From Ailanthus altissimus (Eukaryota > Streptophyta > Magnoliopsida > Sapindales > Simaroubaceae), in contig OX327705.1 in assembly GCA_946807835.1 (NCBI GenBank), positions 15,282,501 through 15,346,500 on the forward strand: a stretch of DNA of 64,000 nt, given 5' to 3'. The position numbers and the translations under genes are program-made. The first letter of the stretch is position 1; each line of letters opens with the position of its first letter. Positions 55,860-56,442 of this stretch are shown here, piece by piece. Below the pieces are notes generated by a model. That model saw only the letters and a program-made list of their open reading frames with translations. It was not told the DNA's origin and searched no databases.

Positions 55860-56442
55860 ATTGTTGGATCAAATAGAGGTGTAAAGCTTGTAGTTCATCA
55901 AGTAGTTGATCAACAGTTGAAGCAGAAATGAGGATCTATCTTGCTGCAGATGTGATAAACTGTTTTTCCACCGCATAATTAAGAAAAGATAATAACCCAT
56001 TATAAAAACCATCAACATTTAACAAACTAATGGGTTTTTTTTATGGATTTGCAATTGTGCCCATGAGACATTTTGAAAAATTGCCTCTAATGTTTTGAAA
56101 CCTCAAGGTAAAGCTATAAAGGCATCAACATTCCGAAGCATAAAAGATATTCGTTTATGCATTGATGATACTTATAACTCATCCCCAATTATTTGTCCTA
56201 CAATATTTCTAACAGCTAGAGCTTTTGGTATGATACCCAAAATTCGACTACCTTTATTTTATGCAGCTATTGCCACACATCCCATTAATCTAAGACTACC
56301 GCCCCATATACTAAATGAATATTTTGCTCAACTAACATTGTACCAAGGGGTTCTTCTACTTCTACGAACTCTCTAGTTGTTTTAGGGCTGGATTTATAAA
56401 GACACAAATTTTTGTGAATTTACTAGTTGATGTTCTTTCCAT
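55860..56442 (-). pseudogene. LOG-like cytokinin phosphoribohydrolase pseudogene, intronless, within gypsy B
   Basis: From an ATG at 56442 (MERTSTSKFTKICVF) the minus strand reads, in successive frames, EQNIHLVYGA, RILGIIPKALAVRNIVGQ, MHKRISFMLRNVDAFIALP, QGFKTLEAIF, VSWAQLQIHKK, LLNVDGFYNGLLSFLNYAV and ILISASTVDQLLDELQA, ending near 55860. Order and spacing match LOG proteins (about 200-220 aa), which release free cytokinin bases from riboside 5'-monophosphates in the cytosol. Conserved PGGxGTxxE reads PQGFKTLEA, so Gly and catalytic-region residues are altered. At least two frameshifts and several stops are present. Plant LOG genes have several introns; none is seen over 580 bp. It sits between integrase and 3' LTR, where such elements carry an extra ORF. 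The + strand ORF 56095-56376 is its shadow. Confidence 0.8.

Follow-up and report, generated by a model that had tools for sequence, protein, structure and literature searches.

The 64-kb stretch of DNA analysed here (the window) contains a genuine copy of a LONELY GUY (LOG)-like gene that has decayed and lies within a retrotransposon on the minus strand (Table 1). In tblastn with element-type LOGs the copy is covered from residue 1 onward in five segments, with four frame changes, four in-frame stops and no intron in the alignment. When the segments are joined, with X at the breaks, the resulting read matches PF03641 (E 6e-28) and the Arabidopsis LOG At2g37210 (PDB 2a33; E 5e-45, query residues 3–187 of 196). 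The PGGxGTxxE motif is broken in this copy. The first-pass annotation, made from the letters alone, had described minus-strand segments in LOG order that begin at an ATG and lack introns, and the domain match, the Arabidopsis match and the alignment with element-type LOGs bear this out, with the ATG at 56442 as claimed. Its end point of 55860 was too short, because the C-terminal tail (KKHKIDLMIRL) goes on in another frame to a stop at 55792–55790. The absence of introns fits a spliced mRNA as the presumed source of the gene.

Table 1 Features of the element in the window
Feature	Position	Strand	Basis
gag-pol region	57546..61685	-	colinear with intact element, 89.7–92.2% identity by block
integrase, C-terminal part	57534..58094	-	80.7% to intact element L034
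decayed NABP gene (carlavirus-type nucleic-acid-binding protein family)	56764..57311	-	tblastn 57311–57057 and 57096–56767; Pfam of open relative L034:9098–9640
NABP–LOG spacer	56443..56763	-	TATA box of open relatives altered here to TGATAAATA near 56516–56508
decayed LOG gene copy	55790..56442	-	ATG 56442, stop 55792–55790; tblastn, Pfam, At2g37210 match
3' non-coding region	54457..55789	-	colinear 56442–54457 at 84.4%
polypurine tract, approximate	54444..54456	-	sequence adjoining LTR start
3' LTR	53040..54443	-	85.1% identical to young LTR of 1438 bp

The surrounding element is colinear with an intact relative from 61685 down to 54457, at 84–92% identity, and Pfam places an rve domain at 58005–58307. 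Both the 3' LTR and the colinear internal region agree with the earlier placement of LOG between the integrase and an extra open reading frame on one side and the 3' LTR on the other, all on the same strand. The extra frame, put at 57.3–56.76 kb, is present, and the follow-up supplied its identity as a decayed NABP gene. No 5' LTR of this element was found within the window or the next 10 kb, and the element is therefore 5'-truncated or split. Just past the end of homology at 61685, inverted repeats occupy 62235–63508, with arms of 107 nt (74%) and 68 nt (76%); they are perhaps a later insertion that severed the 5' part of the element. A second polypurine-like stretch, GACATTGAGGACAATGTCTC...GGGGGG, follows LOG at about 55670–55620 (minus strand), ahead of the actual polypurine tract, and it also occurs in a young copy (L035, about 820–870).

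Traces of other elements are also found in the window. An OTA-type integrase at 49430–49705 (plus strand) is followed by a Transposase_32-like frame (PF20167, 41.1 bits, under the cut-off of 45), the region spanning 49430–50607, and no LOG match lies behind that integrase. At 6211–6317 (plus strand), beside the decayed gag of another element, there is a match to the plant snoRNA snoR71 (47.7 bits, cut-off 40).

Intact relatives in the genome

A search of the genome (939 Mb, 37 contigs) with the LOG query P0002 gave 6307 first-look candidates, 150 of which were scored. All 150 are essentially full-length LOGs of 92–95% identity spread over contigs C1 to C32; of these best-scoring rows, 118 carry no stop beyond the one expected at the gene end, and 32 carry extra stops. 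At the 20 best loci the full 217-aa LOG is present in 17 and a common stop at codon 161 in three, and a NABP match lies upstream in every case, broken in four. Seven of these copies, which we call subfamily A, were fetched with their flanks; they represent all but one or two of the plus-strand loci among the top 20. Six are 12.05–12.10 kb long, with 5-bp target duplications (identified by eye) and LTR pairs that are 99.2–99.9% identical over 1437–1439 aligned bases, while the seventh (L022/L023) is rearranged. With a substitution rate of 1.3e-8 per site per year, the LTR divergence of these six corresponds to an age of about 0.03–0.3 million years.

The element L034/L035 illustrates the organization, which runs from the 5' LTR through the primer site TGGCGCCGTTGCCGGGGA, which we take to be tRNA-Asp-like as in Athila and other OTA elements, to a gag-pol frame of 1844 codons, the 182-aa NABP gene, the 217-aa LOG, a polypurine tract and the 3' LTR. 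In four pieces, Pfam recovers the domain order gag, protease, reverse transcriptase, RNase H and integrase in L034 (PF03732, PF13650, PF00078, PF17917 and PF00665). The integrase is in one piece in five of the seven A copies, and the gag-pol frame of L028 is broken near its end. One RNase H region was seen in L034 by Pfam; an additional RNase H domain is given as a mark of Tat, and as lacking in Athila, in part of PMC6317226.

A second query, P0016, yielded 6169 first-look candidates, and the 150 scored, part of them subfamily A again, include a further set of open LOGs, subfamily B. The B copy examined (L071–L073) has an LTR pair that is 100% identical over 1562 bp, a gag-pol frame of 1818 codons, a 182-aa gene, LOG and, by eye, the target duplication AAATG; its LOG protein is 67% identical to that of A. 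Across the eight fetched elements (seven A, one B), seven have LTR pairs of 99.2–100% identity, and paired LTRs with TG..CA ends plus a target duplication are present in six of the seven A elements and in the B element. The order integrase, NABP, LOG holds in all eight and also in the window; as the eight were picked for holding LOG, this establishes the fixed place of the gene and not how common LOG is within the family.

The first-pass annotation had proposed looking for LOG in related gypsy copies, and LOG sits at the same place in 8/8 elements, with its frame open in many copies. It had regarded relatives without LOG, together with a target duplication or poly(A) tail of the copy's own, as the mark of a separate insertion, and the constant position is the opposite pattern. 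That the window LOG arose as an ordinary processed pseudogene by insertion into an already old element is hardly credible to us: its intronless, decayed state would suit such an origin, but a stray insertion was rejected given this shared position and the colinearity of the window copy with intact elements, which continues across LOG as far as the 3' region. Rather than a stray captured transcript, the window LOG is the decayed form of a gene that belongs to the retrotransposon family.

LOG protein features and upstream signals

The open LOG copy matches PF03641 with E 6.3e-40, and a predicted model of P0002 (pLDDT 83.5) has the Arabidopsis LOG 2a33 as its best fold match (E 6.9e-24). The tail of P0002 is atypical, so the model is uninformative on the C-terminal features described below. 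The active-site motif PGGxGTxxE is retained in 37/46 element rows, compared with 27/27 host rows, and in 78/90 further matches; it is absent in its strict form from nine of the 46. A near-invariant Arg98 is retained as well.

At the C-terminus, an EAR-like LxLxL motif falls within the last 14 residues in 32/46 element rows versus 0/27 host LOGs (Fisher p 5e-10), and it recurs in 80 of the 90 further matches. A C-terminal basic patch is found in 27/46 element rows versus 0/27 host rows, several of the rows that lack the patch or LxLxL being shortened models, and in alignment A3 the tail residues D212 and L215 do not vary. LxLxL-type EAR motifs bind TOPLESS, and the basic patch and LxLxL tail are predicted to direct LOG to the nucleus or to TOPLESS-type co-repressors.

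Both subfamilies have a TATA box 60–73 bp before the LOG ATG. The sequence TATAAATACA starts 73 bp before the ATG in A (4/4 copies inspected) and 60 bp before it in B, while the spacer around it has otherwise diverged between the two. On the plus strand of the A copy examined, TATAAATA occurs only before LOG and once in each LTR.

The partner gene

NABP is a 182-aa zinc-finger-like protein that matches PF05515 (Viral_NABP) with 31.7 bits (cut-off 23) and PF01623 (Carla_C4) with 18.3 bits, under the cut-off of 20.9. It has 535 homologues at E up to 0.001. Among the best 120 of these, Cx2Cx4Cx3C is found in 95 and a basic run in 101, and the named ones come from Xanthoceras, Acer, Populus and Rhamnella, with Xanthoceras and Acer nearest. 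When 26 members were chosen, 21 matched PF05515 and 23 matched PF01623 at E up to 0.01, and three gave a weak SHQ1 match. No viral relative was found in the viral collection scanned with NABP. The structure model has a pLDDT of 58 and is therefore too poor for a structure search. Upstream of NABP lies a stretch with CTAAC, poly-T and TTGCAG that resembles a splice acceptor, and one Rhamnella protein (P0080) unites integrase, NABP and LOG pieces in a single chain. Equal-sized contigs (8723, 4511, 2074 and 1558) behind some NABP and LOG entries were considered as a hint of linkage and discounted, because equal sizes also occur among contigs too short for both genes.

Subfamilies A and B agree at 147/149 positions in a block that covers the end of NABP and the next 70 nt (L034:9563–9711, L071:602–750), compared with an identity of about 71% for pol and about 69% for LOG. 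Its counterpart in the window lies at about 56845–56695 (minus strand). One strand of the block folds somewhat better than shuffled sequences (z -2.25). The block could be an RNA element that acts in cis, or a product of recombination.

Selection on LOG and NABP

Between A and B, the LOG differences by codon position are 56/32/111 (p 2e-11), with dN 0.230, dS 1.73 and an omega of about 0.13 (NG86) that is rough because dS is near saturation. The same comparison for NABP gives 43/21/58 and an omega of 0.21 (NG86) or 0.13 (YN00). Three pieces of pol have dN of 0.16–0.19 with dS saturated, so that LOG has been held nearly as tightly as pol. From the codon-position differences and omega we conclude that selection has kept LOG, and at the sequence level the gene is under purifying selection between the subfamilies. 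Within A, 17 copies, picked as intact, carry 15 synonymous and seven nonsynonymous LOG variants. The window LOG differs from a young copy by 31/20/22, a comparison without power that displays no codon bias; as expected, this suits a dead copy and lends no support to selection either.

These data bear on whether LOG is a captured passenger without function, which we consider very improbable. It is true that a gene transduced by a plant LTR element usually occurs in just one or a few copies, as stated in a portion of PMC7264820. Against a neutral passenger, which was rejected, stand the codon-position bias between A and B, a simple neutral simulation in which both frames stayed open in 0/2000 runs, and the open frames in rows from several plant orders.

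Descent of the element-type LOGs

A first tree was built from 83 rows, comprising 82 of the best 120 listed proteins (190–260 aa) and one copy from this genome. All 47 rows of the element type group together in a single clade with support of 100/99; outside it are 27 plant host LOGs and nine bacterial-type rows, and its sister branch consists of plant host LOGs. Named rows in the clade come from Reevesia, Pterospermum, Diplodiscus, Parasponia, Rhamnella, Dipteronia and the parasite Orobanche, with the Rhamnella, Dipteronia and Diplodiscus rows on long branches and less surely placed. A second tree of 50 chosen rows, which came with a long-branch warning, again recovers the clade (31 rows, 100/99) and adds Populus, Paulownia and Rehmannia, with the three Lamiales genera grouped together (99/98). 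The orders covered are Malvales, Sapindales, Rosales, Malpighiales and Lamiales.

In the second tree a Xanthoceras LOG (P0242) with a host-like tail adjoins the element clade (98/93), and by its position it is a possible donor type. The Xanthoceras models P0001, P0241, P0242 and P0266 hold two LOG copies in tandem, one of which is sister to the element clade. In the parasitic plant Orobanche hederae, P0065 and P0069 are element-type LOGs that group with Rehmannia and Paulownia. The Populus rows P0284 and P0311, annotated as host LOGL10 ('LOGL10' of P. trichocarpa and P. nigra), also fall within the clade. One Pterospermum LOG cluster has 327 members. A viral collection scanned with LOG returned 27 distant relatives, with best segments 25–46% identical.

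Location inside the element is observed for this genome and, via P0080, for Rhamnella; clade membership and copy number suggest the same for the other species. The distribution of element-type LOGs would be explained by one old capture, or by later movement between plant lineages. The first-pass annotation had suggested that one element captured LOG, which then decayed. The window copy has indeed decayed, but capture by a single element is not supported: LOG is open in many copies, is under purifying selection between subfamilies and forms one clade across plant orders.

Discussion

We think it probable that the element in the window is a decayed representative of a high-copy Ty3/gypsy family of the Ogre-Tat-Athila (OTA) type, whose intact copies carry NABP and LOG under purifying selection after the integrase, and that LOG likely raises active cytokinin where the element is expressed. 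The LOG and NABP pair likely alters the growth state of the host cell as the element spreads. In the mechanism we propose, a LOG transcript would have been captured once, long ago, unless the element later moved between plant lineages. LOG would be transcribed from its own TATA box, and NABP perhaps expressed via splicing. The enzyme would free cytokinin from cytokinin riboside monophosphates, an activity that we predict from its sequence, and the freed cytokinin would drive cells to division or to a meristem-like state. NABP would damp silencing or change transcription as its viral relatives do, and between them the two genes would give the element more cells in which to copy itself and be inherited. 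The tail of LOG may add a nuclear role.

That tail, rather than hormone activation, could in principle be the reason for which LOG was kept: the protein would work in the nucleus as an adaptor or decoy and bring in TOPLESS-type co-repressors via LxLxL, with the enzyme fold serving as a scaffold. We judge this unlikely: the occurrence of LxLxL in element-type rows and further matches but in none of the host LOGs speaks for it, as do the invariant D212 and L215, yet the active-site motif and near-invariant Arg98 are also retained, and for the element LOG the TOPLESS binding known of such motifs is a prediction. The enzyme might instead serve nucleotide metabolism, hydrolysing nucleoside monophosphates such as AMP and shifting the pools used by reverse transcription. 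Bacterial members of the fold have been solved with AMP bound (5zbk, 5zbl and 3sbx), but in sequence and fold the protein is nearest to the plant LOGs of Arabidopsis and its sister branch is made up of plant host LOGs, and we hold this to be improbable.

A LOG domain in gypsy elements is not in itself new. PMC9289625 (2022) mentions, in a single sentence, that the consensus sequences of gypsy elements from Citrus sinensis, C. clementina and Populus trichocarpa contain a YgdH (LONELY GUY-type) domain, and cites Steinbauerova et al. 2011. These elements resemble ours in that a LOG-family domain sits in a plant Ty3/gypsy element, and Populus LOGs belong to the clade described above; that passage is a domain listing, however, and comes without partner gene, tail, promoter, selection or phylogeny. 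The orchid element Gypsy_Pa_2799, described in the same paper, likewise has an additional frame for a captured enzyme of host type, in its case a 2-ODD (m6A RNA demethylase) with activity shown in vitro, whereas the activity of the element LOG is predicted. It differs further in being a Tat/Ogre-type element with dual RNase H, found in that screen in Phalaenopsis only.

Athila and other OTA elements, as portrayed in portions of PMC6317226 and PMC7264820, have env-like or other extra frames after the integrase and, as here, on the same strand between integrase and 3' LTR. Those frames are mostly without known domains, whereas the two described here belong to named protein families. The portions of PMC7264820, PMC11963269 and PMC6317226 covered contain no LOG or carlavirus-type gene, and a 2019 survey, by one of its passages, counted extra frames from 250 codons up, longer than either the LOG or the NABP gene. 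In title and full-text literature searches we recognised no further account linking LOG, cytokinin, YgdH or carlavirus with retrotransposons, nor did literature searches turn up the NABP partner, LOG tail, promoter or selection for retrotransposons.

According to part of PMC12172455, the viral proteins related to NABP suppress silencing, and one of them, p12 of chrysanthemum virus B, doubles as a hyperplasia-inducing transcription factor. NABP shares with such carlavirus-type cysteine-rich proteins a basic patch, zinc-finger-like cysteines and PF05515/PF01623. Unlike p12, it is encoded by a retrotransposon and extended by long additional parts at both the N- and the C-terminus, and its function is a prediction.

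There are also parallels among mobile or parasitic agents that carry a gene for making or activating cytokinin. T-DNA (with ipt) and Rhodococcus fascians carry such genes; these agents are bacterial, whereas the LOG element is an inherited genomic parasite. A bolder reading, which we regard as possible but offer tentatively and with more doubt than confidence, is that this LTR retrotransposon family is akin to a transforming retrovirus. Since early eudicots it would have carried a two-gene growth cassette, consisting of a cytokinin-activating enzyme, with a promoter of its own and an added tail for the nucleus or for co-repressors, and of a virus-type zinc-finger regulator or silencing suppressor, and would reprogram the cells of its host so that these divide and tolerate its replication.

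As element-type LOGs are annotated as host genes, for example the Populus 'LOGL10', counts of the LOG family in species of this kind may include retrotransposon genes. The finding also bears on what the extra open reading frames of plant gypsy elements do. If the proposed function is true, a plant hormone gene is held by a genomic parasite, and this would be a plant parallel to the oncogenes of retroviruses.
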